From Photorhabdus luminescens subsp. luminescens (GTDB taxonomy: Bacteria; Pseudomonadota; Gammaproteobacteria; Enterobacterales; Enterobacteriaceae), in contig NZ_JXSK01000005.1 of the NCBI RefSeq assembly GCF_001083805.1, forward strand, positions 62,001 to 126,000: a stretch of 64,000 nucleotides of DNA. Direction: 5' to 3'. Shown one piece after another: positions 12,821 through 34,511 of the stretch (position 1 is the first letter of the stretch; each line of letters starts with the position of its first letter). Under the pieces are notes generated by a model. The model had not been told where the DNA came from, ran no database searches, and saw nothing but the letters and a program-made list of their open reading frames with translations. The position numbers and the translations under genes were made by a program.

Positions 12821-12915
12821 GGAAGATCATCGTCCCCGGTGGGGCGGCTGGACTTCAAATCCAGATGAGGCCGCCAGCGGTCTCTGGCAGGTTCGACTCC
12901 TGTGATCTTCCGCCA
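12821..12915 (+). tRNA. selC: tRNA-Sec (selenocysteine, anticodon UCA)
   Basis: Ninety-five nucleotides including an encoded CCA, the size of E. coli selC. The acceptor stem GGAAGATC pairs with GATCTTCC in an unusually long 8-bp stem. The anticodon TCA sits at 12855-12857 and a long variable arm (GAGGCCGCCAGCGGTCTC) is present. The T-arm is GGTTCGACTCC. selC is a well-known integration hotspot, and the DNA to its right is accessory. Confidence 0.96.
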
Positions 12916-17006: not shown

Positions 17007-17038
17007 AGGCAGAATGGTAATATTACTGTTCTGCCTTT
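17007..17038 (+). terminator. array-type terminator behind the 100-aa gene
   Basis: AGGCAGAA pairs with TTCTGCCT, followed by TTGTC. It is the first of nine copies of this hairpin in the region, preceded by the same TTTTCTATTAAAT block. The remainder of 16812-17579 is AT-rich and holds no gene I can support; an AGGAGACGAC at 17570-17579 is the ribosome site of the next gene. Confidence 0.65.
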
Positions 17039-17579: not shown

Positions 17580-18680
17580 ATGCTTGATTCAAATGTAACA
17601 GATAGTAATTGTAAGGTTTCTTCCCCCGTTTGTTCTTTTAATGAATGGGACCCACTTGAGGAGGTTATTGTCGGTGTAGTTGATGGCGCCAGATTTCCCG
17701 GTTGGCATATGGCGATAGAGCCGATACTACCATCGAATCAAATTGAAAATTTTCATCGGTATGCAGGTCGGTCATTTCCGCAAGAACAAATTGATGCAGC
17801 ATCTAGAGAATTAGAAGAGTTTGTCCATATTCTTAGAGGTGAAGGTGTGACAGTACGTCGCCCAGATCCGCAAGACCAATCTCAGGTATTTGGCGCGCCA
17901 GGCTGGAGTAGTACAGGGTTTTATTGTGCAATGCCTCGCGATGTGCTGTTAGTTATTGGAAATGATATTATTGAATGCCCGCTAGCATGGCGTTCCCGTT
18001 ATTTTGAGACGGCGGCATATAAGACTTTACTTAAAGATTACTTTAAGAAAGGTGCAAAATGGAGCGCCGGGCCAAAGCCACAGTTGATCGAGGAACAATA
18101 TAATTTCGAATGGCATCAGCCTAATGGCAGGGAGCGTGTTCCCCTTGCTATAACTGAGTTTGAACCGACTTTTGATGCTGCGGATTTTATCCGATGTGGG
18201 CGAGACATCATTGCTCAAAAGAGCCATGTCACAAATGAATTTGGTATTGAATGGCTTCGTCGTCATATAGGTGATGAATATCGTATTCATGTTTTTGAAT
18301 TTAACGATGATAACCCTATGCACATTGATGCCACCTTTGTTCCTATGGCGCCAGGAAAATTGTTGATTAACCCAGAAAAGGTGTTAAAAGTTCCTGAACT
18401 GTTTAGGAAATGGGATGTATTACATGCGCCTCATCCGGTTATTCCTGATGATCATCCTCTGTATACGACCAGTAAATGGATCAACATGAATATTCTGATG
18501 TTGGATGAGCAGCGGGTGATTGTTGAAAGGCAGGATGAGCCAATGATCGCTGCAATGAAACGCTGGGGCTTCACGCCGATTCCATGTAATTTCAGGAATT
18601 TTAATACGTTCGGCGGTTCCTTCCATTGTGCGACCGTGGATGTAAGACGGCGCGGAACTTTACAGTCTTATCTTGACTAG
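17580..18680 (+). CDS. glycine amidinotransferase (L-arginine:glycine amidinotransferase type)
   Basis: Transfers the amidino group of arginine to an amine acceptor (glycine in the vertebrate enzyme, giving guanidinoacetate and ornithine) through a covalent amidino-cysteine. Seen: 366 aa with the complete family core. The catalytic triad by comparison with the animal enzyme is Asp199 (FDAADFIRCGRDI), His248 (NPMHIDATF) and Cys350 (GGSFHCATVDVRRRG). The N-terminus is SFNEWDPLEEVIVG and the C-terminus RRGTLQSYLD closely resembles eukaryotic AGAT. No signal peptide, so cytosolic. AGGAGACGAC gives a strong ribosome site. A 58-aa ORF follows 6 bp later, and the eight serine hydrolases lie beyond. 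Bacterial homologues occur in natural-product pathways such as cylindrospermopsin (CyrA), so the acceptor need not be glycine. Confidence 0.92.
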   Translation: MLDSNVTDSNCKVSSPVCSFNEWDPLEEVIVGVVDGARFPGWHMAIEPILPSNQIENFHRYAGRSFPQEQIDAASRELEEFVHILRGEGVTVRRPDPQDQSQVFGAPGWSSTGFYCAMPRDVLLVIGNDIIECPLAWRSRYFETAAYKTLLKDYFKKGAKWSAGPKPQLIEEQYNFEWHQPNGRERVPLAITEFEPTFDAADFIRCGRDIIAQKSHVTNEFGIEWLRRHIGDEYRIHVFEFNDDNPMHIDATFVPMAPGKLLINPEKVLKVPELFRKWDVLHAPHPVIPDDHPLYTTSKWINMNILMLDEQRVIVERQDEPMIAAMKRWGFTPIPCNFRNFNTFGGSFHCATVDVRRRGTLQSYLD

Positions 18681-18686
18681 GAAATA

Positions 18687-18863
18687 ATGATGGCTATCTG
18701 GAGATATTCCCTTTGGGATGCAGTCATGTTTGCATTAAATATCTTGTATATGGTAGCCACTTTTATGCGAGTCGTGTATTGGGATACAAAAGTGATTATA
18801 GAATTGAAAGCTCTCCCAATATTTGACCATACTAAATATGCCTCTACATTTATATACGACTGA
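18687..18863 (+). CDS. small ORF (58 aa) directly behind the amidinotransferase
   Basis: Seen: ATGATG at 18687 preceded by AGGAAA, 6 bp after the amidinotransferase stop, and an uninterrupted 58-codon frame to TGA at 18861-18863. The product has a hydrophobic stretch (DAVMFALNILYMVATFM, residues about 11-27) that could be one transmembrane helix, then WDTKVIIELKALPIFDHTKYA. I do not recognise the family. Spacing and ribosome site argue that it is translated with the amidinotransferase. It could also be the start of a decayed longer gene. A long stem-loop follows 23 bp after the stop. Confidence 0.5.
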   Translation: MMAIWRYSLWDAVMFALNILYMVATFMRVVYWDTKVIIELKALPIFDHTKYASTFIYD

Positions 18864-18886
18864 TGTAAATGTTAGAGATGAATATC

Positions 18887-18942
18887 CGCATGCACACAGT
18901 CACTTTTAGGTTAAGATTAATTGCAGTGTGTGCATGCGTTTT
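18887..18942 (+). terminator. stem-loop terminator of the amidinotransferase unit
   Basis: CGCATGCACAC at 18887-18897 pairs perfectly with GTGTGCATGCG at 18928-18938 around a 30-nt loop, followed by TTTT. It closes the amidinotransferase/small-ORF unit before the hydrolase array. Confidence 0.6.
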
Positions 18943-19116
18943 GCTTGTATTTCTCCCCCGCTTCTCCATCATTTCTATGATTATGAATAGTAACAGGCTG
19001 TTTAATTCTAGATTTAAGTATGAGTTCTGAAATAATTGCTGGTAGCGAATCACTGCTAGCATGAGTTTATCTATTCCGATGAGTAACCGTAGTTACTTTC
19101 TGTTTCTCTTTATATA

Positions 19117-19170
19117 TTAAATGATAATAGTTATTACTTGGATGTTGCTTATTTCCGTCTTACAGTACTG
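19117..19170 (+). promoter_or_regulatory. array promoter with Fur-box-like operator, copy 1
   Basis: TTAAATGATAATAGTTATT at 19117-19135 matches 13 of 19 bases of the Fur consensus. Directly after it TTGGAT and TACAGT hexamers stand 17 bp apart, conserved in all five full-length array promoters. Distance to the start codon is about 75 bp. Confidence 0.45.
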
Positions 19171-19240
19171 CCCACATATATATTGCTATCAGACTGCATA
19201 TATATGTCTTATTTTATAACATAATATAAGGAAGTTAATG

Positions 19241-20830
19241 ATGGAATCGATGATATCTAAAGATAATATTCAATTATTTATCAATAAAATAGATGAGTTG
19301 GTTAATATTGAAAATGAAAAAAAAGGTGGAGCTCTCGCAGTCGCTATTATCCATGATGATAAGATAATTTATCAGCGCCATATTGGGAAAGCTAGCATTG
19401 AACATGCTGTTGATATACAGCCTAATACTAAATTCTATTTAGCGAGCGCTTCAAAACAATTCACGGCTTTTTGCATAGCTTTGCTGGAGAAAGAAGGAAA
19501 ACTCAACGTCAAGGATAAAATCGGACAATATTTGGATTATTTACCCGCGCATTTCTGTGATATTACTATTGAGCATCTTATTCATCATACCAGTGGGTTA
19601 CGGGATGTATTTTTACTTTATAGTCTGGCAGGTAAAAACTCAAGCTTTGACTACTGCAATGCTGATTTAGTGGAAAAACTTATCCAACGACAACAGACAT
19701 TTAACACCCCCACTGGAGAATATTATATTTATAGCAACACAGGCTATTATTTGTTGGGGGAAATTATCAATGTAGTTTCAGGTAAGTCTTTGAAAGAATA
19801 TGCAGAAGAAAATGTTTTCGCTCCATTAGAGATGAAAGATACTATTATCTGTGATGATATAACCGAGATTATCTCTAATCGGGCGATGGGTTACACTTAT
19901 AATCAGAATTCGCAACAGTGGATAAGAAGCGATATCAATAATTCTGTGATGGGTAGTGCAGCGGTTCATTCCACCGTGAATGATTTATGTCGTTGGGCTA
20001 GAGCGTTTTATTCGCCATCTATTGTTAAGGACCTACTGCCTCAATTATCCCGTACACCAGATTTAGATAATGGCAATCGTAACAATTATGCTTACGGTTT
20101 AATTATGGACCAACGTGAAGGGCAAAGGGTAATACAACACAGTGGTACCTATGCTGGCTTTAGAGCTAATGTTTTTATTTTACCAGATGCTAAATTAGGT
20201 ATGGCGATGACTGCTGCAAGCAATGTTAATGTTGGTGAATGGACGGATAAGTATATTGATATATTGTTTAATACCCATGTTGAGCCAGAAAAACCACATT
20301 GCTTAACTAATGATATTGATATCACCGGTATTTTCCGAGGGATAGAGCCTTATCCTTATATTATTACCAAAGAAGATGTTTATTTTTTAGGTGATTTATT
20401 TAAAAAAGGTAACCCGATTATTTTTAACTCTGACGGTTCATTCCAGGAGGAAGGAAGTAAAATTAAGTTCAGACCCGTCATTGAAAATGACAGTGTTATC
20501 GCACTGGAGCATATTGATGAAAATGGTAATGTTTTTTATTTAAAAAAGATGAACGATGAAGATAGTGTCGATATTCAGCTATTGTCAGGGCGCTATTATA
20601 GTCACGAAGCAGAGGCGATAATTAATATTATATCTTCTGGTGATGATATTTATATTGATGGAATTATCCATCCTGTAAAAAAAGAGGCTTTGCGACATAT
20701 TTATGGGAATAGTTATTTCTCTCCCAGTGCTGAATTTGTTATTGATTTTGAACTTGATCCTGATACCAATAAACCTCGTCTTTATATCGGTAATGCACGT
20801 TGCTTGAATATAGAATTTGTTCCAATTTAA
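19241..20830 (+). CDS. serine hydrolase, class C beta-lactamase/PBP-like fold, array copy 1
   Basis: 529-aa protein with an N-terminal beta-lactamase/transpeptidase-like domain (about residues 10-340) and a C-terminal beta-rich domain (about 345-529) starting at DIDITGIFRGIEPYPY. The three active-site motifs are Ser69-A-S-Lys72 (SxxK), Tyr164-S-Asn166 (YxN) and His300-S-Gly302 (the K/H-T/x-G strand). Length and two-domain build fit the EstB / D-aminopeptidase-like branch rather than a true beta-lactamase. No signal peptide is visible, so it should be cytosolic, unlike most penicillin-interacting relatives. The second ATG (19241) of ATGATG has the better spacing from AAGGAAG. It is almost identical to copy 3, pointing to recent duplication. 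Substrate unknown. Confidence 0.88.
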   Translation: MESMISKDNIQLFINKIDELVNIENEKKGGALAVAIIHDDKIIYQRHIGKASIEHAVDIQPNTKFYLASASKQFTAFCIALLEKEGKLNVKDKIGQYLDYLPAHFCDITIEHLIHHTSGLRDVFLLYSLAGKNSSFDYCNADLVEKLIQRQQTFNTPTGEYYIYSNTGYYLLGEIINVVSGKSLKEYAEENVFAPLEMKDTIICDDITEIISNRAMGYTYNQNSQQWIRSDINNSVMGSAAVHSTVNDLCRWARAFYSPSIVKDLLPQLSRTPDLDNGNRNNYAYGLIMDQREGQRVIQHSGTYAGFRANVFILPDAKLGMAMTAASNVNVGEWTDKYIDILFNTHVEPEKPHCLTNDIDITGIFRGIEPYPYIITKEDVYFLGDLFKKGNPIIFNSDGSFQEEGSKIKFRPVIENDSVIALEHIDENGNVFYLKKMNDEDSVDIQLLSGRYYSHEAEAIINIISSGDDIYIDGIIHPVKKEALRHIYGNSYFSPSAEFVIDFELDPDTNKPRLYIGNARCLNIEFVPI

Positions 20831-20933
20831 TGAACTAGTTAGTAAATACAAGTTTAAAATAGCGTTCCGCTAGCAGGATAGAATTAATGCTATTGAGGGA
20901 CTAAAGATATTTTCTATTAAATGCCTTTTGCTC

Positions 20934-20972
20934 CAGACAGAACTATTTATATTTATGTTCTGTCTGTTTTTT
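20934..20972 (+). terminator. array terminator after copy 1
   Basis: CAGACAGAAC...GTTCTGTCTG hairpin plus TTTTTT. It ends only about 10 bp before the ribosome site of copy 2, so copy 2 can be expressed only by read-through or by a promoter that I cannot see. Confidence 0.8.
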
Positions 20973-20993
20973 ATAAATATTAGGAGATTAATG

Positions 20994-22583
20994 ATGAAAC
21001 TGACAATATCCACAGATAATATTAAATTATTTCTCGAGAAAATAGACGAATTAGTTAATGTTGAGAATAAAAAAAAGGGAGGCGCTCTTGCCGTTGCGGT
21101 TACCTACGGCAATAAAACCATTTATCAGCGTTATATCGGGCAAGCTAGTATTGAACATGCTGTGGCTGTAAAACCTAGTACTAAATTCTATTTAGCAAGT
21201 GTTTCAAAACAATTCACGGCTTTTTGCATAGCTTTGCTGGAGAAAGAAGGAAAGCTCAACGTAAAGGATAAAGTCAGACAATACTTGGGTTATTTACCCG
21301 CTCATTTCTCTGATATTACTATTGAACATCTTATTCATCACACCAGCGGGCTACGGGATGTATTTTTACTTTTTGGTTTGGCAGGTAAAAACTCGGATTT
21401 TGACCACTGTCATGTTGATTTAGTAAGAAAACTAATCCGACGACAACAGGCACTTAACGTACCTACTGGGGAATATTATCTTTATAGCAACACGGGCTAT
21501 CATTTATTGGGGGAAATTGTCAGAGTGGTTTCAGGTAAGCCGTTGAAAAAATATGTAGAAGAAAATGTTTTCGTCCCATTAAAGATGAAAGATACCTTTA
21601 TCTACGATGATATAACCGAGATTATCTCCGACAGGGCGATGGGTTACATTTATAATGAGGATTCACAACGATGGATAAGAAGTGATATCAACAATTCTGT
21701 GGTGGGTAGTGCAGGAGTTCACTCCACCGTGAATGATTTGTGTCGTTGGATGAAAGCATTTTATTCACCATCTATTGTTCAGGATCTGTTGCCTCAATTA
21801 TCCCGTATGCCAGATTTAATCAATGGCAATCGCAACAATTATGCTTACGGTTTGATTATCAGTCAACGCGAAGGGCAAACGATAATACAACACAGTGGTG
21901 CTTATGCTGGTTTCAGAACTAATATGTGTATTTTACCGGATGCTAAGTTAGGTATCGTGATAACCGCTGCAATAGGTGTTGATGTTGCTAAATGGGTGGA
22001 TCGGTATATTGATATATTGCTTAATGCCGATTTCGAGCCGAAAAAGCCGCATTACCTAACCAGTGATATTGATATTACTGGTATTTTCCGAGGGATAGAA
22101 TCTTATCCTTATGTTATTACCAAAGAAGATGTTTATTTTTTAGGTAATTTATTCGGAAAAGGTAATCCGATTACTTTTAACTCTGATGGTACATTCCAAG
22201 AGCAAGGAGGTAAGATCCGGTTCAGGACTATTATTGAAAATGACAAGGTTATCGCACTGGAACAGATTGATGAAAATGGTAATGTTTTTTATTTTAAAAG
22301 AATGAATGATGAAGATAGTATTGATATTCAGCTATTGTCAGGGCGCTATTATAGTCACGAAACAGAAGCGATAATTAATGTTATGTCGTCTGGTAAAGAT
22401 ATTTATATTGATGGGATTATCCATCCTATAAAAGAGGAGGTTTTGCGGCATATTTATGGGAATAGTTATTTATCCACAGGAACTAAGCTTATTATTGATT
22501 TTAAGTTTTATCCTGATGAAAATAAATGTCGTCTCTATGTCAGCAATTCGCGTTGCTTGAATTTGGAGTTCATTGCAGTTTAA
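20994..22583 (+). CDS. serine hydrolase, array copy 2
   Basis: 529 aa, same two-domain build as copy 1. Motifs: S-V-S-K at the nucleophile, Y-S-N in YYLYSNTGYHLL, and H-S-G in IIQHSGAYAGF. Compared with copy 1 it has many Lys/Val exchanges (for example MKAFYSPS rather than ARAFYSPS, and VRKLIRRQQAL). The ATG at 20994 has AGGAG seven bases upstream; the frame is open leftwards through the terminator hairpin, which is not credible coding sequence. It lacks the Fur-box promoter and follows the terminator of copy 1 with only about 160 bp between genes. C-terminal domain intact, ending FIAV. Confidence 0.87.
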   Translation: MKLTISTDNIKLFLEKIDELVNVENKKKGGALAVAVTYGNKTIYQRYIGQASIEHAVAVKPSTKFYLASVSKQFTAFCIALLEKEGKLNVKDKVRQYLGYLPAHFSDITIEHLIHHTSGLRDVFLLFGLAGKNSDFDHCHVDLVRKLIRRQQALNVPTGEYYLYSNTGYHLLGEIVRVVSGKPLKKYVEENVFVPLKMKDTFIYDDITEIISDRAMGYIYNEDSQRWIRSDINNSVVGSAGVHSTVNDLCRWMKAFYSPSIVQDLLPQLSRMPDLINGNRNNYAYGLIISQREGQTIIQHSGAYAGFRTNMCILPDAKLGIVITAAIGVDVAKWVDRYIDILLNADFEPKKPHYLTSDIDITGIFRGIESYPYVITKEDVYFLGNLFGKGNPITFNSDGTFQEQGGKIRFRTIIENDKVIALEQIDENGNVFYFKRMNDEDSIDIQLLSGRYYSHETEAIINVMSSGKDIYIDGIIHPIKEEVLRHIYGNSYLSTGTKLIIDFKFYPDENKCRLYVSNSRCLNLEFIAV

Positions 22584-22688
22584 TTGACAGGTTAGTAAAT
22601 ACAAATTTAGGACAGTATTTCGTTAGCAGGATAGGATTGATGCTATTGTGAGAACCAGGAGATATTTTCTACTAATACACTTCATCTT

Positions 22689-22724
22689 AGGCAGAACAGT
22701 TATATTTATGTTCTGCCTGTTTTT
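22689..22724 (+). terminator. array terminator after copy 2
   Basis: AGGCAGAAC...GTTCTGCCT hairpin followed by GTTTTTG; same module as behind the other copies. Confidence 0.75.
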
Positions 22725-22828
22725 GTAAACATTAGATCCTAAAATGATTTCTGAAAGTAAATAAATGTTTATAAAATTTAGTTAATTCTAATTTTTATCC
22801 GCAGTTACTTTGTATTGTCATTCACACA

Positions 22829-22882
22829 TTAAATGATGGTCATTATTACTTGGATATTTCTTGTTTACGTCTTACAGTACTG
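22829..22882 (+). promoter_or_regulatory. array promoter with Fur-box-like operator, copy 3
   Basis: TTAAATGATGGTCATTATT (13 of 19 to the Fur consensus) followed by TTGGAT-17 bp-TACAGT. The arrangement is the same as upstream of copy 1. Confidence 0.42.
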
Positions 22883-22950
22883 CTCATATATATATTGCTA
22901 TCAAGTCGTATATATATTCTGTTTTGTAACCTTAAATAGGGAAGTTCATG

Positions 22951-24540
22951 ATGGAATCGATGATATCTAAAGATAATATTCAGTTGTATATCAATAAAAT
23001 AGATGAGCTGGTTAATATTGAAAATGAAAAAAAAGGTGGAGCTCTTGCAGTTGCTATTATCCATGATGATAAGATAATTTATCAGCGTCATATCGGGCAA
23101 GCTAGTATGGAACATGCTGTTGATATACAGCCTAATACTAAATTCTATTTAGCGAGTACTTCAAAACAATTCACAGCTTTTTGCATAGCGTTACTGGAGA
23201 AAGAAGGAAAGCTCAACGTTAAGGATAAAATCAGACAATATTTGGATTATTTACCCGAACATTTCTCTGATATTACCATTGAGCATCTTATTCATCATAC
23301 CAGTGGGTTACGGGATGTATTTTTACTTTATAGTCTGGCAGGTAAAAACTCAAGTTTTGACTACTGCAATTCTGATTTGATGGAAAAACTGGTCCAACGA
23401 CAACAGACATTTAATGCCCCCGCTGGGGAATATTATATTTATAGCAATACGGGCTATTATTTGTTGGGGGAAATTGTCAACGTGGCTTCAGGTAAGTCGT
23501 TAAGAGAATATGCAGAAGAAAATATTTTCGCGCCATTAAAGATGAAAGATACCATTATCTGTGATGATGTAACCGAGATTATCTCTAATCGGGCGATGGG
23601 TTACACTTATAATCAGAATTCGCAACAGTGGGCAAGAAGCGATATCAATAATTCTGTGATGGGTAGTGCAGCGGTTCATTCCACCGTGAATGATTTATGT
23701 CGTTGGGCTAGAGCGTTTTATTCTCCATCTATTGTTCAGGATCTACTGCCTCAATTATCTCGTACACCAGATTTAAACAATGGCAATCGTAACAATTATG
23801 CTTACGGTTTGATTATCGACCAACGTGAAGGGCAAAGGATAATACAACACAATGGTACCTTTGCTGGCTTCCAAGCGAATATTTGTATTTTACCGGATGC
23901 TAAATTAGGTATGGCGATGACTGCTGCAAGCAATGTTGATGTTGGTGAATGGACGGATAATTATATGGATATCTTGTTTAACACTCATATTGAACCGAAA
24001 AAATCACATTGCCTAACTAATGATATTGATATCACCGGTATTTTCCGCGGGATAGAGCCTTATCCTTATATTATTACCAAAGAAGATTTTTATTTTTTAG
24101 GTGATTTATTTAAAAAAGGTGACCCGATTATTTTTAACTCTGACGGTACGTTCCAGGAGGAAGGAAGTAAAATTCAGTTCAGACCCGTCATCGAAAATGA
24201 CAGTGTTATTGCACTGGAGAATATTGATGAAAATGGTAACGTTTTTTATTTGAAAAAGATGAACGATGAAGATAGTGTCGATATTCAGCTATTGTCAGGT
24301 CGCTATTATAGTCATGAAACAGAGGCGATAATTAATATTATATCTTCTGGTGATGATATTTATATTGATGGGATTATCCATCCTGTAAAAAAAGAGGCTT
24401 TGCGACATATTTATGGCAATAGTTATTTCTCACCTAGTACTGAGTTTGTTATTGATTTTGAATTTGATCTTGATACCAATAAGTATCGTCTTTATATCGG
24501 TAATTCACGCTGCTTGAATGTGGAATTTGTTGCAGTTTAA
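22951..24540 (+). CDS. serine hydrolase, array copy 3
   Basis: 529 aa; the closest relative in the window is copy 1, from which it differs at a few dozen positions by eye. Motifs: S-T-S-K, Y-S-N (YYIYSNTGYYLL) and H-N-G (IIQHNGTFAGF), the only copy with Asn in the third motif. Near-identity with copy 1 extends into the promoter region, so the duplicated unit included upstream DNA. Start: second ATG of ATGATG, with GGGAAG upstream. Cytosolic, no signal peptide. The C-terminal domain carries ITKEDFYFLGDLFKKGDP, with Phe and Asp substitutions not seen in copy 1. Confidence 0.87.
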   Translation: MESMISKDNIQLYINKIDELVNIENEKKGGALAVAIIHDDKIIYQRHIGQASMEHAVDIQPNTKFYLASTSKQFTAFCIALLEKEGKLNVKDKIRQYLDYLPEHFSDITIEHLIHHTSGLRDVFLLYSLAGKNSSFDYCNSDLMEKLVQRQQTFNAPAGEYYIYSNTGYYLLGEIVNVASGKSLREYAEENIFAPLKMKDTIICDDVTEIISNRAMGYTYNQNSQQWARSDINNSVMGSAAVHSTVNDLCRWARAFYSPSIVQDLLPQLSRTPDLNNGNRNNYAYGLIIDQREGQRIIQHNGTFAGFQANICILPDAKLGMAMTAASNVDVGEWTDNYMDILFNTHIEPKKSHCLTNDIDITGIFRGIEPYPYIITKEDFYFLGDLFKKGDPIIFNSDGTFQEEGSKIQFRPVIENDSVIALENIDENGNVFYLKKMNDEDSVDIQLLSGRYYSHETEAIINIISSGDDIYIDGIIHPVKKEALRHIYGNSYFSPSTEFVIDFEFDLDTNKYRLYIGNSRCLNVEFVAV

Positions 24541-24643
24541 TTGGCTAGTTAATAAATACAAATTTAGAATAGCGTTTCACTAGCAGGGTAGTATTAATGC
24601 TATTGAGGGCTTAAAGATATTTTCTATTAGATGCACTTTGTTC

Positions 24644-24683
24644 CAGACAGAACTATTATATTTATGTTCTGTCTGTTTTTTTT
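24644..24683 (+). terminator. array terminator after copy 3
   Basis: CAGACAGAAC...GTTCTGTCTG hairpin followed by eight T residues; the strongest T-run of the series. Confidence 0.8.
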
Positions 24684-24725
24684 AAATATCAGCTTCGGTA
24701 GTTACTTTATATTGCCCTCCATATA

Positions 24726-24780
24726 TTAAATGATAATCATTATCGCTTGGATGTTTCCTATTTACATCTTACAGTACTGC
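24726..24780 (+). promoter_or_regulatory. array promoter with best Fur-box match, copy 4
   Basis: TTAAATGATAATCATTATC at 24726-24744 matches 16 of the 19 Fur consensus bases and is itself an imperfect palindrome. TTGGAT-17 bp-TACAGT follows. An ERIC element now separates this promoter from the gene by an extra 127 bp. Confidence 0.55.
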
Positions 24781-24811
24781 CGGCATATGTATTGCTATTA
24801 GGCTGAATATA

Positions 24812-24938
24812 TATACCCGTTATCTTTCAAGTTGCCTCTTTGTTGGCTGCACTCACTCACCCCGGTCACATAGTTCTCTATGCTCCCGGGGATTCGCTCC
24901 CTTGCCGTCGCGATGCAGCTTGAAATCCATAGGGTATA
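24812..24938 (-). repeat. ERIC element in the leader of copy 4
   Basis: 127 bp, inverted relative to the gene, with TATACCC/GGGTATA ends. The equivalent leader of copy 7 reads GGCTGAATATATATGTTCTGT without an insert, giving a direct empty-site comparison. The transcript of copy 4 should carry the ERIC hairpin in its 5' leader. Confidence 0.93.
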
Positions 24939-24979
24939 TGTTCTGTTTTATAATCTTAAATAAAATAAGGAAATTAATG

Positions 24980-26569: not shown

Positions 26570-26674
26570 TGTATAAAGTAATAAATTAGAATGAATAACG
26601 CGGCACGGTTATAGCAGGATGGAATTAATGCTATTAAGGGCCTAAAGATATTCCCTATCAGATGCACTTTTTTC

Positions 26675-26712
26675 CAGGCAGAACTATGATATTTATGTTC
26701 TGTCTGTTTTTT
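26675..26712 (+). terminator. array terminator after copy 4
   Basis: CAGGCAGAAC...GTTCTGTCTG hairpin (one G-U pair) followed by TTTTTT. Confidence 0.78.
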
Positions 26713-26752
26713 GCAAACATCAGCTCCCGTAGTTACTTTATATTGCCCTTTA

Positions 26753-26879
26753 TATACCTAATAGATTTCGAGTTGCATCGCGACGGCAAGGGAGCGAATC
26801 CCCGGGAGCATAGAGAACTATGTGACCGGGGTGAGTGAGTGCAGCCAACAAAGAGGCAACTTGAAAGATAACGGGTATA
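26753..26879 (+). repeat. ERIC element abutting the promoter of copy 5
   Basis: 127 bp with TATACC/GGGTATA ends, ending three bases before the Fur-like box of copy 5. Copies 4 and 7 have the uninterrupted sequence CATATATTAAATGAT at the same place, so the insertion point is a TA within TATATA. Confidence 0.93.
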
Positions 26880-26881
26880 TA

Positions 26882-26936
26882 TTAAATGATAGCCATTATC
26901 ACTTGGATGTTTCCTGTTTACGTCTTACAGTATTGC
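26882..26936 (+). promoter_or_regulatory. array promoter with Fur-box-like operator, copy 5
   Basis: TTAAATGATAGCCATTATC (14 of 19 to the Fur consensus), then TTGGAT-17 bp-TACAGT. It survives intact beside the ERIC insertion. Confidence 0.45.
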
Positions 26937-26984
26937 CCGTATATATATGTTCTATTTTATAACCTCAAAATAAGGAAGTTCATG

Positions 26985-28577
26985 ATGGAATCAAAGATAT
27001 CTACTGATAAAATTGAATTATTTCTCAAGAAAATAGACGAACTGGTTAATATTGAAAATAAAAGAAAAGGTGGAGCTCTCGCTGTTGCGGTTATCCACGG
27101 TAATAAAACTATTTATCAGCGCTATATCGGAAAAGCCAACATTGAACACGCTGTTGCTATACAACCTAATACTAAATTCTATTTGGCGAGTGTCTCAAAA
27201 CAATTCACGGCTTTTTGCATAGCCTTATTGGAGAAAGAAGGAAAGATCAGCGTTAAGGATAAAGTTGGACAATATTTAGATTATTTCCCCGCAGAATTCT
27301 CTGATATTACTATTGAGCATCTTATTCACCATACCAGTGGATTACGTGATCAATTTTTACTTTATAGCCTAGCAGGTAAAAATTCAGCCTTTGACCACCG
27401 TCATATTGATTTGGTGAGAAAACTGACGCAACGGCAACAAGCGCTTAATTTTACGCCTGGAGAATATTATCTCTATAGCAACACCGGTTATAATTTAATG
27501 GCGGAAATAGTCAGAGTGGTTTCAGGCCAGTCGCTGAGAGAATATGCAGAAGAACATGTTTTCGCACCATTAAAGATGAAAGATACCTTTTTCTATGATG
27601 ATGCTACCGAGATTATTTTTGACCGGGCGATGGGGTACTCCTATAACGAGGACTCGAACCGATGGATAAGAGAAGATCTCAATGATGCGGCGGTAGGAGG
27701 TTCGGGGCTGTATTCTACAGTGAATGATTTGTGTCGCTGGATGAGAGCGTTTTATTCGCCATCTATTGTTCAGGATCTATTGCCTCAATTATCTCGCACG
27801 CCAGATTTAACTAATGGCAATCGTAACGATTATGCTTATGGTTTTGCGATCAGCCAACGAGAAGGGCAAAAGATAATACGACATGATGGTGGTTATGGTG
27901 GCTTCAGATCAGAAGTTTGTATTTTGCCTGATGCTGAATTAGGTATTGCTGTTACTTCTGCAATGAATACTAATGTCTCTAAGCTTGTTCGACAATGTTT
28001 TGATGTATTGTTTAATCCCAATGGTACTAAACTAGAAAAACAGCCTTGTCTGACTAGTGATATCGATATTACGGGTATATTCAAAGGAATACAACCATAT
28101 CCTTATATTATTACCAAAGAAGATTGCTATTTATTAGGTAATTTATTCGAGAAAGGTAACCCGATTATCTTTAATTCTGATGGAACATTCCAAGAGGAGG
28201 ATGGGAAAATTCGGTTCAGACCTATTATTGAAAATGACAGTGTTATTGCATTGGAGAAAATTAATGAAAATGGCAATGTTTTTTATCTAGATAAGATGAT
28301 TGATGATGGTGGTACCGATATTCAGCTACTGTTAGGATATTATTATAACCACGAAACAGAAGCTGTGCTCACTGTTGCAGCCTCTGGTGATGAGCTTTAT
28401 ATCGATGCAATTATTTCTCCTAAAAGAAAAGAAGTCTTACATCGGGTTTATGGGAATAGTTATTTTTCTCCTAGCACAGAGCTTATTATTGATTTTGAAT
28501 TTGACCCTGACACGAATAAACCTTGCCTTTACCTCAGTAATGGTCGTTGCTGGAAGATAGAATTTGTCGCAGTTTAA
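26985..28577 (+). CDS. serine hydrolase, array copy 5
   Basis: 530 aa, one residue longer than copies 1-4 because of an insertion around NPNGTKLEKQPC between the two domains. Motifs: S-V-S-K, Y-S-N (YYLYSNTGYNLM) and H-D-G (IIRHDGGYGGF). The sugar- or peptide-contacting loops differ from copies 1-3 (SGLYSTVNDLCRWM; GFAISQREGQ). The C-terminal domain is the most diverged of the set (LLLGYYYNHETEAVLTV, and ISPKRKEVLHRVYG), suggesting relaxed or altered function there. ATG at 26985 with AAGGAAGTTC upstream. Cytosolic; substrate unknown. Confidence 0.87.
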   Translation: MESKISTDKIELFLKKIDELVNIENKRKGGALAVAVIHGNKTIYQRYIGKANIEHAVAIQPNTKFYLASVSKQFTAFCIALLEKEGKISVKDKVGQYLDYFPAEFSDITIEHLIHHTSGLRDQFLLYSLAGKNSAFDHRHIDLVRKLTQRQQALNFTPGEYYLYSNTGYNLMAEIVRVVSGQSLREYAEEHVFAPLKMKDTFFYDDATEIIFDRAMGYSYNEDSNRWIREDLNDAAVGGSGLYSTVNDLCRWMRAFYSPSIVQDLLPQLSRTPDLTNGNRNDYAYGFAISQREGQKIIRHDGGYGGFRSEVCILPDAELGIAVTSAMNTNVSKLVRQCFDVLFNPNGTKLEKQPCLTSDIDITGIFKGIQPYPYIITKEDCYLLGNLFEKGNPIIFNSDGTFQEEDGKIRFRPIIENDSVIALEKINENGNVFYLDKMIDDGGTDIQLLLGYYYNHETEAVLTVAASGDELYIDAIISPKRKEVLHRVYGNSYFSPSTELIIDFEFDPDTNKPCLYLSNGRCWKIEFVAV

Positions 28578-28679
28578 TTGACAGGGTTGTGAACGCGAGT
28601 TGAGAATAGTGTTTATCTGGCAGGATGGCGGATTCTATTGAGATCCCCGAGATATTTTCTACCTGACGGACTTTTTCCT

Positions 28680-28710
28680 AGGCAGAACGTCCATATTCAT
28701 GTTCTGCCTT
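28680..28710 (+). terminator. array hairpin after copy 5 (weak)
   Basis: AGGCAGAAC...GTTCTGCCT stem is kept but only two T residues follow, so it should terminate poorly. Copy 6 begins just 54 bp later without its own full promoter, which fits read-through from copy 5. Confidence 0.5.
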
Positions 28711-28763
28711 ACAGGGCTGACTTTATATATCTATTTGTATAAAATTAAATAAGGAAAATAATA

Positions 28764-30356
28764 ATGAAATCGACGATATCTAAAGATAATATTAATTTGC
28801 TTATCAAGAAAATAGACGAGTTGGTTGATATTGAAAATAAGAAACAGGGTGGCGCTCTTGCTGTTGCTGTGACCCACGGTAATAAAACGATTTATCAGAG
28901 CCATATCGGAAAGGCTAATATTGAACATGCTGTTGCTATACAGTCTAATACTAAATTCTATTTGGCGAGTGTTTCAAAGCAATTCACGGCTTTCTGCATT
29001 GCCTTATTAGAGAAAGAAGGAAAGCTTAGTGTTAAAGATAAAGTTGGGCAATATTTGGATTATTTCCCCGTAGAATTTTCTGATATTACTATTGAACATC
29101 TTATTCATCATACTAGTGGATTACGTGATGAATCTTTACTTTATCGCCTGGCAGGTAAAAACTCGCGTTTTGATTGCCATCATATTGATTTGATAAGAAA
29201 GCTGACGCAGCGGCAACGAGCACTTAATTTTACACCTGGGGAATATTATGCTTATAGCAATACGGGCTATCATTTGTTGGCGGAAATAGTCAGCGTGGTT
29301 TCAGGTAAATCATTGAGAGCATATGCAGAAGAAAATATTTTCGCCCCGTTAAAGATGAAAGAGACTGCTTTCTATGATGATGTCACCGAGATTATTTCTG
29401 ATCGGGCGATGGGTTACACTTATAACGAGAAACCACACCGGTGGGCAAGATATGATCTTAATGGTTCCGTGGTCGGTGGCACAGGGGTTTATTCTACGGT
29501 GAATGATTTGTGTCGCTGGATCAGAGCATTTTATTCGCCATCCATTGTTCAGGAATTGTTGCCTCAATTATCCCGTACACCAGATTTAACCAATGGTAAT
29601 CGCAATAACTATGCTTACGGTTTGATTATCAGCCAACGAGAAGGGCAAAAAATAATACAACATGATGGTTCCTATGCTGGTTTTAAATCTGAAGTTTGTA
29701 TTCTGCCTGACTCCAAATTAGGTATTGCTATTACCTCTGCAACAAATATTAGTGTCATTCAATGGATTGAGCAGTGTCTTGATGTGTTGTTTAACACGAA
29801 TATAATTGAACCGGCAAAACCACATTGTCTAATCTGTGATATCGATATTACCGGCATTTTCCGAGGGGCAGAACCTTATCCTTATATTATTACCAAGGAG
29901 GATTGCTATTTATTGGGTAATTTATTCGGAAAAGGCGACCCGATTAATTTTAATCCTGATGGTTCATTCCAACAGCAAGGAAGTAAAACTCGATTTAGAC
30001 CTATCATTGAAAATGACAGTGTTATCGCATTGGAACAGATTGATGAAGATGGCAATGTTTTTTATTTTAAAAAAATGACTGATGATGGTGTTATCGATAT
30101 TCAGCTATTGTCAGGGAATTATTATAGTCATGAAATAGAATCAACGATGACTATTTCTGTCTCTGGAGATGGAATTTATATTGATGGGATTACTTACCCT
30201 GTGAATAAAGAAGTTCTACGGCGGGTTTACGGTAATAGTTATTTCTCCCCGGGCACTGAATTTGTTATCGATTTTGAATTGGATTCTGGTACGAATAAAC
30301 CTCATCTTTATATCAATGATGGGGGTTGCTGGAGGGTAGAGTTTGTCGCAGTTTAA
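28764..30356 (+). CDS. serine hydrolase, array copy 6
   Basis: 530 aa. Motifs: S-V-S-K, Y-S-N in YYAYSNTGYHLL, and H-D-G in IIQHDGSYAGF. This is the only copy starting with a single ATG (ATAATGAAATCG instead of ATGATGGAA); alignment to it supports the second ATG as the start in the others. AAGGAAAATA lies upstream. Gene-specific features include the GNYYSHEIESTMTI segment and NDGGCWRVEFVAV at the C-terminus. It has no Fur-box promoter and sits 186 bp behind copy 5 with a weak hairpin between, so the two probably form one transcription unit. Confidence 0.87.
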   Translation: MKSTISKDNINLLIKKIDELVDIENKKQGGALAVAVTHGNKTIYQSHIGKANIEHAVAIQSNTKFYLASVSKQFTAFCIALLEKEGKLSVKDKVGQYLDYFPVEFSDITIEHLIHHTSGLRDESLLYRLAGKNSRFDCHHIDLIRKLTQRQRALNFTPGEYYAYSNTGYHLLAEIVSVVSGKSLRAYAEENIFAPLKMKETAFYDDVTEIISDRAMGYTYNEKPHRWARYDLNGSVVGGTGVYSTVNDLCRWIRAFYSPSIVQELLPQLSRTPDLTNGNRNNYAYGLIISQREGQKIIQHDGSYAGFKSEVCILPDSKLGIAITSATNISVIQWIEQCLDVLFNTNIIEPAKPHCLICDIDITGIFRGAEPYPYIITKEDCYLLGNLFGKGDPINFNPDGSFQQQGSKTRFRPIIENDSVIALEQIDEDGNVFYFKKMTDDGVIDIQLLSGNYYSHEIESTMTISVSGDGIYIDGITYPVNKEVLRRVYGNSYFSPGTEFVIDFELDSGTNKPHLYINDGGCWRVEFVAV

Positions 30357-30460
30357 TTTATGAAGTGATAAATCAGAATAAAGAATAGCGTTGTTATAGC
30401 CGGATGGGATTAATACTATTGAGGACCTAAAGATATTTCCTATTGGATACACTTTGTTCC

Positions 30461-30496
30461 AGGCAGAACGATTATATTTATGTTCTGTCTGTTTTT
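30461..30496 (+). terminator. array terminator after copy 6
   Basis: AGGCAGAAC...GTTCTGTCT hairpin followed by GTTTTTG. Confidence 0.75.
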
Positions 30497-30540
30497 GCAA
30501 ACATTAGCTCCCGTAGTCACTTTATATTGCTCTTCATATA

Positions 30541-30594
30541 TTAAATGATAACCATTATCACTTGGATGTTTCCTATTTACGCCTTACAGTATTG
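30541..30594 (+). promoter_or_regulatory. array promoter with Fur-box-like operator, copy 7
   Basis: TTAAATGATAACCATTATC (15 of 19 to the Fur consensus), then TTGGAT-17 bp-TACAGT. The downstream leader lacks an ERIC and provides the empty site for the insertion ahead of copy 4. Confidence 0.48.
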
Positions 30595-30664
30595 CTAACA
30601 TATGTATTGCTACTAGGCTGAATATATATGTTCTGTCTTATAACCTTAAATAAGGGAGTTCATG

Positions 30665-32254
30665 ATGGAATCGACGATATCTATAAATAACATTAACTCT
30701 TTTCTCAAAAAAATAGAAGAACTGGTTAATATTGAAAATAAAAAAAAGGGTGGCGCATTTGCTGTTGCTGTTACCCACGGTAATAAAACCATTTATCAGC
30801 GCCATATCGGAAAGGCTAACATTGAACATACTGTTGCTGTAAAATCTAGTACTAAATTCTATTTGGCGAGTGTTTCAAAACAATTCACGGCTTTTTGCAT
30901 AGCCTTGTTAGAGAAAGAAGGAAAGCTTTGCGTCAAGGATAAAGTTGGACAATATTTGGATTATTTCCCCGCAGAATTTTCTGATATTACCATTGAGCAT
31001 CTTATTCACCATACCAGTGGGTTACGGGATCAATTTACACTTTATAGCCTGGCAGGTAAAAACTCGGATTTTGACCACCGTCATATTAATTTGGTAAGAA
31101 AACTGACTCAACGTCAACGAGCACTTAATTTCACGCCTGGGAAATATCATCTCTATAGTAATACAGGCTATAATTTGTTGGCGGAAATAGTCAGAGTGGT
31201 TTCAGGTAAATCTCTGAGAGAATATGCAGAAGAAAATGTTTTCGCCCCATTAAAGATGAAGGATACCTTTTTCTATGATGACATAACCGAGATTATCTCT
31301 GATCGTGCAACGGGCTATGCTTATAATGAGAAGCTGCATCAATGGAAAAGGGATGATCTCAATGATGCGGTGGTTGGTGGTTCAGGGCTTTATTCTACGG
31401 TAAACGATTTGTGTCGTTGGGTCAGAGCGTTTTATTCGCCATCCATTGTTCAGGAGTTATTGCCTCAGCTATTCAGGACGCCGGATTTAACCAATGGCGA
31501 TCGTAACAATTATGCCTACGGTTTGATTATTAGACAACGTGAAGGGCAAAAGATAATACGACACGGTGGTTCTTATGGTGGCTTCAAATCTGATATTTGC
31601 ATTTTGCCTGATGCTAAATTAGGTATCGCTATTACTTCCGCAACAAACACTGATGTCTATAACTTTGTCGGGCAGTGTCTTGATGCATTGTTTAATTCCA
31701 GTGGTACTAAACCAAAACAGCCTTGCCGGACCGGTGATATTGATATTACCGGTACTTTCAAAGGAATAGAGCCTTTTCCTTATATTATTACCAAGGAAGA
31801 TTGCTATTTATTAGGTAATTTATTCGGAAAAGGTAATCCGATCATTTTTAATGCTGATGGAACCTTCCAGGAAGAAGGTGGGCAAATTCGGTTCAAGCCT
31901 ATCATTGAAAATGACATCGTTGTTGCACTGGAACAGATTGATGAAAATGGCAATGTTTTTTATTTGAAAAAGATGATTGATAAAGGTGATATCGATATTC
32001 AGCGATTGTCAGGGCGCTATTATAATCACGAAACAGAATCGATTATCAATATTGAAGAGTCCAGTGATGAAATTTATATTGATGCGATTGTGTTACCTGG
32101 AGAAAAATCGTTCTTAAGATGGATTTACGCGAACAGTTACTTTTTACCTGGTACTGAATTTATTATTGATTTTGAATTGAATTCTGATACGAATGAGCCT
32201 CATCTCTATCTCAATGATGGACGTTGCTGGAAGATAGAATTTGTTCCAGTTTAG
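30665..32254 (+). CDS. serine hydrolase, array copy 7
   Basis: 529 aa. Motifs: S-V-S-K, Y-S-N within GKYHLYSNTGYNLL (Lys-His replaces the Glu-Tyr seen in the other copies just before the motif), and H-G-G in IIRHGGSYGGF. Other individual changes are FRTPDLTNGDRNNYAYG and YLAGKNSDFDHRHINLV-type loops, and a C-terminal region ILLPGEKSF-like stretch (AIVLPGEKSFLRWIYANSYF). It is closest to copies 5 and 8. ATG at 30665 with GGGAGTTC upstream. No signal peptide. Substrate unknown. Confidence 0.87.
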   Translation: MESTISINNINSFLKKIEELVNIENKKKGGAFAVAVTHGNKTIYQRHIGKANIEHTVAVKSSTKFYLASVSKQFTAFCIALLEKEGKLCVKDKVGQYLDYFPAEFSDITIEHLIHHTSGLRDQFTLYSLAGKNSDFDHRHINLVRKLTQRQRALNFTPGKYHLYSNTGYNLLAEIVRVVSGKSLREYAEENVFAPLKMKDTFFYDDITEIISDRATGYAYNEKLHQWKRDDLNDAVVGGSGLYSTVNDLCRWVRAFYSPSIVQELLPQLFRTPDLTNGDRNNYAYGLIIRQREGQKIIRHGGSYGGFKSDICILPDAKLGIAITSATNTDVYNFVGQCLDALFNSSGTKPKQPCRTGDIDITGTFKGIEPFPYIITKEDCYLLGNLFGKGNPIIFNADGTFQEEGGQIRFKPIIENDIVVALEQIDENGNVFYLKKMIDKGDIDIQRLSGRYYNHETESIINIEESSDEIYIDAIVLPGEKSFLRWIYANSYFLPGTEFIIDFELNSDTNEPHLYLNDGRCWKIEFVPV

Positions 32255-32339
32255 TTTAATTGATAGGGTTGTGAACACGAGTTGAGAACAGTATTTCTCT
32301 GGCAGGATAGATCTAATTATATTAGATTATAATTATTTT

Positions 32340-32370
32340 AGGCAGAATGGTCATATTCATGTTCTGTCTT
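32340..32370 (+). terminator. array hairpin after copy 7 (weak)
   Basis: AGGCAGAAT...GTTCTGTCT with a poor T-run (TTATTG). Copy 8 begins 66 bp later without the full promoter, as with the copy 5/6 pair. Confidence 0.45.
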
Positions 32371-32435
32371 ATTGCATCGTATTATCAGATTGTATATATA
32401 TTATTTTTATATAACCTTAAATAAGGAAATTAATG

Positions 32436-34022
32436 ATGGAATTTACTATATCTAGAGATAAAATTAAGTTGCTTCTCAAAAAAATAGATGAATTGGTTGA
32501 TATTGAAAATAAGAAAAATGGCGGTGCCCTCGCGGTTGCTATTACCCACGGAAATGAAACCATTTATAAGCGCTATATTGGGCAAGCCAGCATTGAACAT
32601 TCTACTGTTGTAACCCCAAATACGAAATTCTATATGGCGAGTGTCTCAAAACAATTCACCGCCTTCTGTATTGCTCTGCTGGAAAAAGAAGGAAAGCTTA
32701 ATGTCAAGGATAAAGTTGAAAAATATGTGAATTATTTCCCGGCACATTTCTCTGGTATTACCATTGAGCATCTTATTCATCATACCAGTGGGTTACGGGA
32801 TAAATATGTTCCTTATGGCTTGGCAGGTAAAAACTCAGATTTTGACCACCGCAGTATGGGTTTATTGAGGAAACTGATTCAACGGCAACAAAAGCTTAAT
32901 TTTACGCCTGGGGAATATTTTAGCTATACCAATACGGGCTATAATTTGTTGGCGGAAATTATCAAAGTGGTTTCAGGTAAATCGTTAAGAGAATATGCGA
33001 AAGAAAATATTTTTATTCCATTAAAGATGAATAATACCTCTTTCTATGATGATGTGACTGAGGTTATTTCTGACCGGGCGATAGGTTATGTCTATAACGA
33101 AGATGCAAATCAATGGATAAGATCGGATCACAACGATTCAACTATAGGGAGTGCGGGGCTGCGTTCTACAGTCAGTGATTTATGTCGCTGGATGAAAGCA
33201 TTTTATTCACCATCGATTGTTCGGGATATGTTGCCGCAATTATCCCGTACACCAAATTTAACCAATGGTAATCGTAACAATTATGCTTACGGTTTGATGC
33301 TCAGCCAACGTGAAGGGCAAAAGATAATACGGCACGATGGTTCCTATGGTGGTTTTAAAGCTGAGGTTTGTGTTTTACCTGATGTTAAATTAGGTATCGC
33401 GATTACTGTTGCAACAGGTATTAATACCGTTGAATTTACTAATCAATGTCTGAATATATTATTTAATACTGATATGACTGAGCCAGAACATTGCCGAACC
33501 AGTAATATTGATATCACCGGTATGTTCAAAGGGGCAGATCCCTATCCCTATATTATTACCAAGGAAGATTGCTATTTATTAGGTAATTTATTCGAGAAAG
33601 GTAATCCGATTATCTTTAACGCTGATGGAACATTCCAAGAGAAGGGAGGAGAAATTCGATTCAGACCTGTCATTGAAAATGGCAGTGTTATCGCATTGGA
33701 ACAGATTGATGAAAATGATAATGTTTATTATTTGAAAAAGATGACTGATAAAGGTGATATTGATATTCAGCGATTATCAGGTCGTTATTATAATTGCGAA
33801 ACAGAATCAATTGTCAATATTGAATCATCTAATCATGATCTTTATATTGAAGCGGTTATCTTGCCCGGAAATAAAGAGGTCTTACGATGGGTTTACGAGA
33901 ATAGTTATTTCCATCCCAGTACTCAACTTATTGTTGATTTTGAATGGGATTCTGATACGGATAAACCTCGCCTCTATCTCAATGATTCACGTTGTTGGAA
34001 GATAGAGTTTATCTCAGTTTAG
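32436..34022 (+). CDS. serine hydrolase, array copy 8
   Basis: 528 aa, the shortest and one of the more diverged copies. Motifs: S-V-S-K (in YMASVSKQF), Y-T-N instead of Y-S-N (YFSYTNTGYNLL), and H-D-G (IIRHDGSYGGF). Cation- or substrate-facing segments differ: VEKYVNYFPAHFSGITIEHL and RDKYVPYGLAGK. The C-terminal domain begins NIDITGMFKGADPYPY and ends CWKIEFISV. All catalytic residues are present. ATG at 32436 with AAGGAAATTA upstream. No own Fur-box promoter; a short gap and weak hairpin separate it from copy 7, so the two are probably co-transcribed. It ends the array. Confidence 0.87.
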   Translation: MEFTISRDKIKLLLKKIDELVDIENKKNGGALAVAITHGNETIYKRYIGQASIEHSTVVTPNTKFYMASVSKQFTAFCIALLEKEGKLNVKDKVEKYVNYFPAHFSGITIEHLIHHTSGLRDKYVPYGLAGKNSDFDHRSMGLLRKLIQRQQKLNFTPGEYFSYTNTGYNLLAEIIKVVSGKSLREYAKENIFIPLKMNNTSFYDDVTEVISDRAIGYVYNEDANQWIRSDHNDSTIGSAGLRSTVSDLCRWMKAFYSPSIVRDMLPQLSRTPNLTNGNRNNYAYGLMLSQREGQKIIRHDGSYGGFKAEVCVLPDVKLGIAITVATGINTVEFTNQCLNILFNTDMTEPEHCRTSNIDITGMFKGADPYPYIITKEDCYLLGNLFEKGNPIIFNADGTFQEKGGEIRFRPVIENGSVIALEQIDENDNVYYLKKMTDKGDIDIQRLSGRYYNCETESIVNIESSNHDLYIEAVILPGNKEVLRWVYENSYFHPSTQLIVDFEWDSDTDKPRLYLNDSRCWKIEFISV

Positions 34023-34130
34023 TTTAATTGATTGGGTTGTAAATATGAATTAAGAACCGTGTTTTTCTGGAAGGATGAAGGAATTAGATTGAGATCATAA
34101 AGATATTTTCTATTTAATCTATTTATTTTC

Positions 34131-34162
34131 AGGCGGAACTATTATGACGATGTTCTGCCTGT
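34131..34162 (+). terminator. array hairpin after copy 8
   Basis: AGGCGGAAC...GTTCTGCCT, one G-U pair, then GTCC; ninth copy of the module. From here to 34511 the DNA is AT-rich and holds no protein gene. In Vibrio the space ahead of avcD encodes the inhibitory RNA AvcI, so an RNA gene could lie in 34170-34500, but no specific structure was recognised. Confidence 0.5.
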
Positions 34163-34511
34163 CCGATCTGATTGTGATATTTTAATTGCTTCATAGGTTT
34201 TTTTTGTTTATATTCCTATCGCTCTCCAATCCTTGAAGAGTAAATTTTTCCTCTAATTATAGATACGATTTAATTTTTATTATAATAGAACGGGATAAAT
34301 GTGTCATAAATGGTGAGTTATGTAATATTGATTCATGTTTTCTAGTCTGGTGTTAGGAAAATAGCTTAAATCATAATGTATAGGGTCAAGTAAATAAAAC
34401 ATTTATATTCATCGAAGAAATTATATTGTTCTGAATGTTATATTGTATTTTATAGGTGTAGTTAACGTTATTTTGAATAAATTAAAACAACAATGAATGG
34501 AAATATTTAAT

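Follow-up and report, generated by a model that had tools for sequence, protein, structure and literature searches.

Tandem S12 serine hydrolases with Fur-box-like operators beside an amidinotransferase operon remnant in Photorhabdus

Several of the nearest solved relatives of the enzymes described here, namely the D-aminopeptidase DAP, the archaeal protein Pab87 and alkaline D-peptidase, act on D-amino acid peptides or related amides. The prodrug peptidases typified by ClbP, which is periplasmic and membrane-anchored, have the S12 catalytic domain in common with them. Cytosolic siderophore hydrolases of the Fes/IroD type are iron-repressed serine hydrolases of a fold different from S12. Here we analyze a 64,000-nucleotide stretch of the Photorhabdus luminescens subsp. 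luminescens genome (hereafter the window), in which nine head-to-tail open reading frames (ORFs) at 17580-34022 encode one AGAT (arginine:glycine amidinotransferase)-type enzyme and an array of eight S12 hydrolases (19238-34022; H1 to H8). What is new here is a Fur-box-like operator upstream of hydrolases of this family. On balance, and with moderate confidence, we favor the reading that two separate modules lie near selC: the remnant of an AGAT operon, and a set of iron-starvation-induced cytosolic hydrolases with diversified substrates. The nine ORFs are:

17580 to 18680, plus strand: AGAT-type amidinotransferase, 366 amino acids (aa), first gene of a broken AGAT-X-Y-Z operon (phmmer to SxtG/AGAT/HsvA structures)
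19238 to 20830, plus strand: H1, S12 serine hydrolase (PF00144, E 1.3e-57)
20991 to 22583, plus strand: H2, S12 serine hydrolase (PF00144, E 1.2e-60; start re-set to the conserved site)
22948 to 24540, plus strand: H3, S12 serine hydrolase (PF00144, E 1.2e-58)
24977 to 26569, plus strand: H4, S12 serine hydrolase (PF00144, E 7.4e-63; start re-set to the conserved site)
26982 to 28577, plus strand: H5, S12 serine hydrolase (PF00144, E 5.9e-67; start re-set to the conserved site)
28764 to 30356, plus strand: H6, S12 serine hydrolase (PF00144, E 1.4e-62)
30662 to 32254, plus strand: H7, S12 serine hydrolase (PF00144, E 4.8e-63)
32433 to 34022, plus strand: H8, S12 serine hydrolase (PF00144, E 1.4e-64)

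The order of an AGAT followed by eight tandem serine hydrolases, as read in the initial annotation of this DNA, is borne out by the match of all eight to the Pfam Beta-lactamase family (PF00144; E 1e-57 to 6e-67, 195.9-226.6 bits against a cut-off of 27). The proteins are 529-531 aa long counting a double Met and 528-530 aa without it, and share a conserved start with an AGGA-like site; the 551-563 aa listed for ORFs 2, 4 and 5 are a product of upstream TTG/ATG starts. The motifs SxxK, YxN and HxG, reported as kept in the window, are invariant as S69-x-x-K72, Y164-x-N166 and H300-x-G302 in all 71 complete copies from 12 Photorhabdus genomes and two further named loci (14 species). The accompanying claim that no copy is decaying stands for the eight of the window and fails for the genus: fragments of a dead copy are present in one genome (G007), and in P. 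khanii one copy is broken at its 5' end and contains an internal stop. In another genome (G002), two partial hydrolase matches lie near contig ends.

DAP (PDB 1ei5) shares the catalytic domain, is of similar length with an extra C-terminal half, and gives a weak, near full-length match. However, the three copies scanned score 121.9-131.7 bits against a cut-off of 443 for the D-aminopeptidase equivalog NF009622, and 73.3-79.2 bits against 415 for class C beta-lactamase NF033085, while a DAP_B match is seen in one of the eight copies, H4, at 19.4 bits and under the cut-off of 25. We know of no instance of DAP as a tandem iron-regulated array. The best solved relative of the family profile is PDB 2qmi, a 'Pbp related beta-lactamase' that we take to be Pab87; it matches residues 25-325, with the C-terminal 200 residues of the hydrolases unmatched. 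An AlphaFold2 model of H6 made with 30 close homologs has a mean pLDDT of 54. Unlike the setting of ClbP, no non-ribosomal peptide synthetase (NRPS) or polyketide synthase gene is found among the scanned genes adjoining the array, and reading of the N-termini by eye reveals no signal peptide in the array proteins. We infer that these are cytosolic S12 amide or ester hydrolases, distantly related to D-aminopeptidase and Pab87.

Alignment of the regions upstream of the hydrolases uncovered a conserved block containing TGATAATNATTATCA, which we take to be the classical 7-1-7 Fur site. Palindromes matching it at 12 or more of 14 positions within 320 bp upstream, the box by which a gene would be placed in the Fur regulon, precede 41 of the 71 hydrolase genes, with 34 sites at 98-124 bp and seven at 199-249 bp before the start codon; their consensus is the perfect TGATAATNATTATCA. 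The same threshold is reached by 142 of 4000 random 320-mers of the same loci, by 20 of 4000 from outside the arrays and by 17 of 1420 mononucleotide shuffles. This first consensus is circular, the blocks having been picked by motif match, and the alignment was repeated with blocks picked by their right flank alone and hence blind to the palindrome: 45 of the 71 were anchored, 38 of these reach at least 12/14, and the consensus is the perfect TGATAATCATTATCA. Such a site is found before none of 14 AGAT genes. In the window, the candidate sites are:

19122 to 19136, plus strand: Fur-box-like palindrome before H1, 2 mismatches
22834 to 22848, plus strand: Fur-box-like palindrome before H3, 3 mismatches (weak, under the count threshold)
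24731 to 24745, plus strand: Fur-box-like palindrome before H4, 1 mismatch (249 bp upstream of the gene start, separated from it by a 131-bp repeat)
26887 to 26901, plus strand: Fur-box-like palindrome before H5, 2 mismatches
30546 to 30560, plus strand: Fur-box-like palindrome before H7, 1 mismatch

At up to two mismatches, the window holds six sites against 1.11 expected, a number reached by none of 100 shuffles, and four of the six lie upstream of hydrolases. Genome-wide, sites with up to one mismatch number 21, two of them in this array, against three for the reversed pattern. Of 15 loci inspected, one is the array and two have a single pair of sites in common, which leaves 13 distinct places outside the array; five further non-array sites were left out. 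Metal-related neighbors were found at five of the 13: L131 (a TonB receptor and an AraC regulator), L133 (a siderophore-interacting protein), L134 (ExbB), L128 (a ZnuA-family metal-binding protein) and L124 (MntP). That Fur reads this palindrome in the genome is thereby supported, if not proven.

The presence of the box also follows gene spacing. Among the 54 hydrolases that follow another within 2 kb, it is seen in 25 of 32 genes with spacers of at least 250 bp versus 3 of 22 with shorter ones (Fisher p 4e-6, although the 71 copies are related and such values are not true probabilities, which weakens the case for the operator); the other 17 of the 71 are 14 behind AGAT, two without a complete preceding gene and one beyond 2 kb. 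In the window, spacers measure 163-186 bp for the box-less H2, H6 and H8, versus 308-560 bp for the boxed copies (the H3 box being weak). H2, H6 and H8 are probably co-transcribed from upstream promoters, and co-transcription with the preceding copy would explain the short-spacer copies without a box. Short hairpins of the AGGCAGAAC...GTTCTGCCT type are present in hydrolase spacers (20934-20966, 22689-22718, 24644-24675) and before AGAT (17007-17036), and hairpins in several spacers may interrupt co-transcription. Scans for consensus promoters and terminators showed no excess over shuffles (85 vs 88.2 and 10 vs 10.5, respectively).

Several further observations speak against Fur control. No site of at least 12/14 precedes 30 of the 71 copies; two of the six window sites with up to two mismatches lie elsewhere, at 33716 inside H8 and at 63695; and allowing three mismatches yields 19 window sites versus 12.5 expected, a count reached by 6 of 100 shuffles, so that the H3 site means little alone. 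Eight of the 13 non-array places have no obvious metal gene among the neighbors scanned (some neighbors being unscanned); they hold an AraC-type regulator, a pirin or a peptide-binding protein, or a site inside an ORF, or neighbors that were not identified. Finally, conservation of the palindrome between window copies does not exceed that of its right flank, so that another regulator or a general promoter block is conceivable. We regard it as possible, though doubtful, that the block works as a promoter or as a regulatory site unrelated to Fur, or that it forms an RNA hairpin. Its flanks TTAAA and CTTGGAT show about the same conservation as the palindrome, and the changes that recur in the palindrome are transitions, of which several would preserve G-U pairing in an RNA. 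The block as a whole, taken in three parts, is 67-100% identical between window copies, versus 57-62% at synonymous sites in nine of ten pairs; in the exceptional H1-H3 pair synonymous identity is 83% and the palindrome, at 73%, falls below it. Upstream of the promoter block identity falls to 16-52%. Against a reader other than Fur, the consensus exactly equals the classical 7-1-7 Fur site, even in the blind alignment, and elsewhere in the genome the same motif has ExbB, a TonB receptor or a siderophore-interacting protein close by. Fur control of the hydrolases, with induction upon iron starvation, is what the operator probably indicates.

By sequence comparison, the hydrolase family is Photorhabdus-specific. 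All 12 Photorhabdus genomes carry it, with 2-9 matches per genome (partial ones counted), and a census of the neighborhood, as the initial annotation had suggested, places AGAT beside the array in 12 of 12 Photorhabdus genomes and finds all eight Xenorhabdus loci without hydrolases. Multiple copies occur in all 12 genomes, including single-contig ones with five and two matches, and the multiplicity is therefore not an assembly artifact. The family is absent from 85 of 85 other relatives at E<=1e-40. In 369 genomes of the class and 398 of the phylum (both samples include the window genome, with up to three candidates per genome scored), hits outside Photorhabdus at E<=1e-30 reach just 28-39% identity. 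Only distant S12 proteins were found in 44 plasmid records, none with at least 60% identity, and in 264 phage records, none with at least 60% identity or covering 80% of the query. A second array, with three hydrolases, occurs in P. khanii (G008) on another contig; two tRNA-Leu genes precede it, and the 20 kb read around it contain no AGAT. Its copies of H5 and H8 resemble those of the window (94% and 93%) more closely than the copies in the main array of P. khanii do, which suggests horizontal transfer.

The initial annotation had proposed that the copies are kept by selection, for dosage or diversified specificity. Purifying selection is indeed observed, with dN/dS of 0.19-0.38 per window paralog pair (0.29 over the 28 pairs) and 0.22 over 195 ortholog-like pairs. 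In a tree of the 71 copies many group by array position across species (H8, H6, H5, H2 and H1/H3 groups). Conservation within groups is seen in 400 columns, of which 245 are identical in all groups and 41 have three or more residues; 23 of these 41 fall in 201-240, 321-360 and 441-480. The highest paralog dN/dS values by 40-residue block are 0.60 (441-480) and 0.52 (321-360), and the most divergent blocks may be loops of the substrate pocket. There are also hints that some copies are mosaic: one copy each in P. caribbeanensis, P. noenieputensis and P. namnaonensis is best like H8 over the first 90 columns (83-89%, the runner-up being 2-5 points lower) and like H5 afterwards.

That the array is kept for the dosage of a single activity, with nearly neutral divergence, appears unlikely to us. 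The paralog dN/dS exceeds the ortholog-like value, as after relaxed constraint, and the number of matches varies from two to nine. On the other hand, orthologous groups span species, and the residues fixed within but differing between groups are clustered, favoring kept differences over interchangeable copies. The cross-species groups, the purifying selection and the concentration of divergence in a few blocks make diversified specificity the better fit, even though, against this, no 40-residue block has a dN/dS above 1 (maximum 0.60).

In the two-module reading, the hydrolase family would have expanded by tandem duplication. Most copies with a long upstream spacer (at least 250 bp) carry a promoter block with a Fur-box-like operator, and the boxed copies would probably be induced when iron is scarce, for instance inside an insect. 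Different copies would probably cleave different imported substrates, either peptides or iron chelators, a role favored because of the presumed cytosolic location, the iron-type operator and the block-wise divergence; of the functional steps, induction by iron starvation alone appears backed by sequence evidence. A bolder and rather unlikely version is that the Fur-controlled cytosolic hydrolases form a genus-specific battery, in which each is specialized for opening its own imported ferric siderophore or iron-binding peptide; if true, this would bring a new enzyme fold and an array-based way of stealing iron within insects. The likeness to Fes/IroD is a proposed analogy only (iron-repressed, cytosolic, serine hydrolase), and no S12 precedent for a cytosolic siderophore hydrolase appears in the excerpts of the literature matches listed. 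For this large, genus-wide and conserved array of catalytically intact enzymes, iron starvation would offer a first, directly testable functional handle.

The AGAT of the window aligns almost end to end with the structures of SxtG, AGAT and HsvA (E 5e-127 to 4e-120), and, when aligned to 1jdw/1jdx, has human N300, M302, H303, D305 and C407 identical at N245, M247, H248, D250 and C350, which presumably provide the catalytic Cys and substrate-binding positions. By sequence it falls in the arginine:glycine amidinotransferase family. In Photorhabdus, AGAT occurs in all 12 genomes and is the first gene of an operon of AGAT, X, Y and Z; the partner genes of HsvA and SxtG (HsvBC and the saxitoxin genes) differ from X-Y-Z. 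X is a desaturase-like membrane protein (FA_desaturase, PF00487), Y a HilA-like dioxygenase (WelO5-like, PF22814; 119 bits to the NCBIfam HilA isoleucine dioxygenase, far under its cut-off of 500) and Z an EamA exporter; no useful solved structure was found for X or Y. AGAT would transfer an amidino group, X and Y would oxidize the product, and Z would export it. Given the resemblance of Y to a dioxygenase of free amino acids and of Z to amino acid exporters, the product is probably a small oxidized guanidino amino acid. No paper on the hydrolase array or the AGAT-X-Y-Z operon was found in the excerpts of the open-license literature matches listed. In the window, one further piece of the operon is seen:

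18681 to 18800, plus strand: remnant of operon gene X (tblastn 66-68% to X of other Photorhabdus; alignable in six species)

Where retained, X-Y-Z sit between AGAT and the array, except in P. heterorhabditis (L072), where X-Y-Z are present and a hydrolase and an AGAT remnant lie between the intact AGAT and X. The three genes are open in six of the 12 genomes (G003, G005, G007, G008, G009, G010), Y is broken in one (G011), and X-Y-Z are lost from the locus in five (G000, G001, G002, G004, G006), as well as in P. akhurstii (L066). The state without X-Y-Z aligns over the same remnant and following sequence in six species, which is consistent with a single deletion. In the window genome, intact X, Y and Z lie elsewhere (G000:C4; L120:7836-11346), behind a 138-residue C-terminal fragment of AGAT and near hisIE. 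The window AGAT, the surviving first gene here, may be the missing enzyme of that split operon, which may still use it. A further Y fragment with two stops lies at G000:C10:41287-41811. X and Y are unmatched at E<=1e-10 in G002, G004 and G006, and G001 has only the X remnant. AGAT dN/dS is 0.03-0.09 among the five species without X-Y-Z other than the window's, versus 0.13-0.16 in pairs with the window, whose AGAT is thus mildly relaxed in constraint.

We compared 38 named AGAT loci (12 Photorhabdus, 8 Xenorhabdus and 18 others). Z-AGAT-X-Y matches without hydrolases are found in all eight Xenorhabdus loci. In the 18 others, AGAT-X-Y stand together in seven, X is adjacent with Y apart in one, only X is present in two and neither in eight; AGAT-X-Y recur in actinobacterial and acidobacterial loci. 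Of four such loci outside Photorhabdus and Xenorhabdus with some neighbors scanned, two have NRPS genes close by (L092, L095), one a Tn3 transposase (L088) and one a 2430-aa ORF (L086). AGAT-X-Y-Z looks like a compact guanidino amino acid pathway, common to insect pathogens and partly found in NRPS-type gene clusters. In X. hominickii, Z-AGAT-X-Y occur on three contigs (L076, L077, L078), with X split in two frames in each. A second amidinotransferase, about 51% alike, is split in two frames in P. australis (L123:6702-7798, G011) and open in another genome (G002:C182:2811-3866).

A single pathway of AGAT and the hydrolases, as the initial annotation had suggested, would make, activate or degrade a guanidino metabolite, and the hydrolases would cleave guanidino-acyl amides or esters. 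The present results do not support such a pathway, and we hold it to be quite improbable: AGAT belongs to its own, separately distributed operon, Xenorhabdus has this operon without hydrolases in 8 of 8 loci, P. khanii has a hydrolase array without AGAT, the hydrolase operator precedes 0 of 14 AGAT genes, and X-Y-Z separate AGAT from the array in the other species that retain them. Three observations weigh against two separate modules and leave room for a functional link, namely the constant adjacency of AGAT and array (12 of 12 genomes), the P. heterorhabditis hydrolase directly behind the intact AGAT and before the AGAT remnant and X-Y-Z, and the purifying selection on AGAT (dN/dS 0.03-0.09) even in the four genomes without intact X or Y (G001, G002, G004, G006). 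A role in phage defense, raised by the neighboring dCTP deaminase, was set aside, as PADLOC gave no hit for AGAT or the three hydrolases scanned.

We take DmpA to be of a family different from the array hydrolases. A 'D-aminopeptidase' from P. asymbiotica transcriptomics (PMC4683029) was likewise set aside, being named DmpA (PAU_02203) there.

The two modules lie in a variable AT-rich region, with a GC fraction of 0.30-0.38 over 14-36 kb versus 0.40-0.49 in the neighboring 4-14 and 36-48 kb. An Rfam scan of 12500-37600 found nothing beyond selC, including in 34023-34496 upstream of the dCTP deaminase, where an RNA antitoxin was not looked for otherwise. Other features of the region are:

12821 to 12915, plus strand: selC (tRNA-Sec), left of the variable AT-rich region (Rfam)
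24809 to 24939, no strand assigned: 131-bp dispersed repeat, lying between H4 and its promoter block (inverted partner at 26752-26882, arms 96% complementary)
34497 to 36011, plus strand: anti-phage dCTP deaminase, between the array and uxuA (NF041025, 484.6 bits against a cut-off of 400; PADLOC dCTPase, E 1.9e-177)

The dCTP deaminase is a downstream neighbor outside the hydrolase array, and we do not think it part of it. It is about full length in seven of 12 genomes and shortened or partial in three (G002, G007, G011); P. khanii and P. tasmaniensis have an ORF of 338-340 aa in its position, which is YadA-like in P. khanii. At 14589-15454 lies the remnant of a helicase, in which a 147-aa ORF matches a 638-aa helicase of another genome (G007) over 110 residues at 92.7%, and the next ORF is conserved at 87%. 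Related matches to the 131-bp repeat lie at about 7307, 47165 and 48701.

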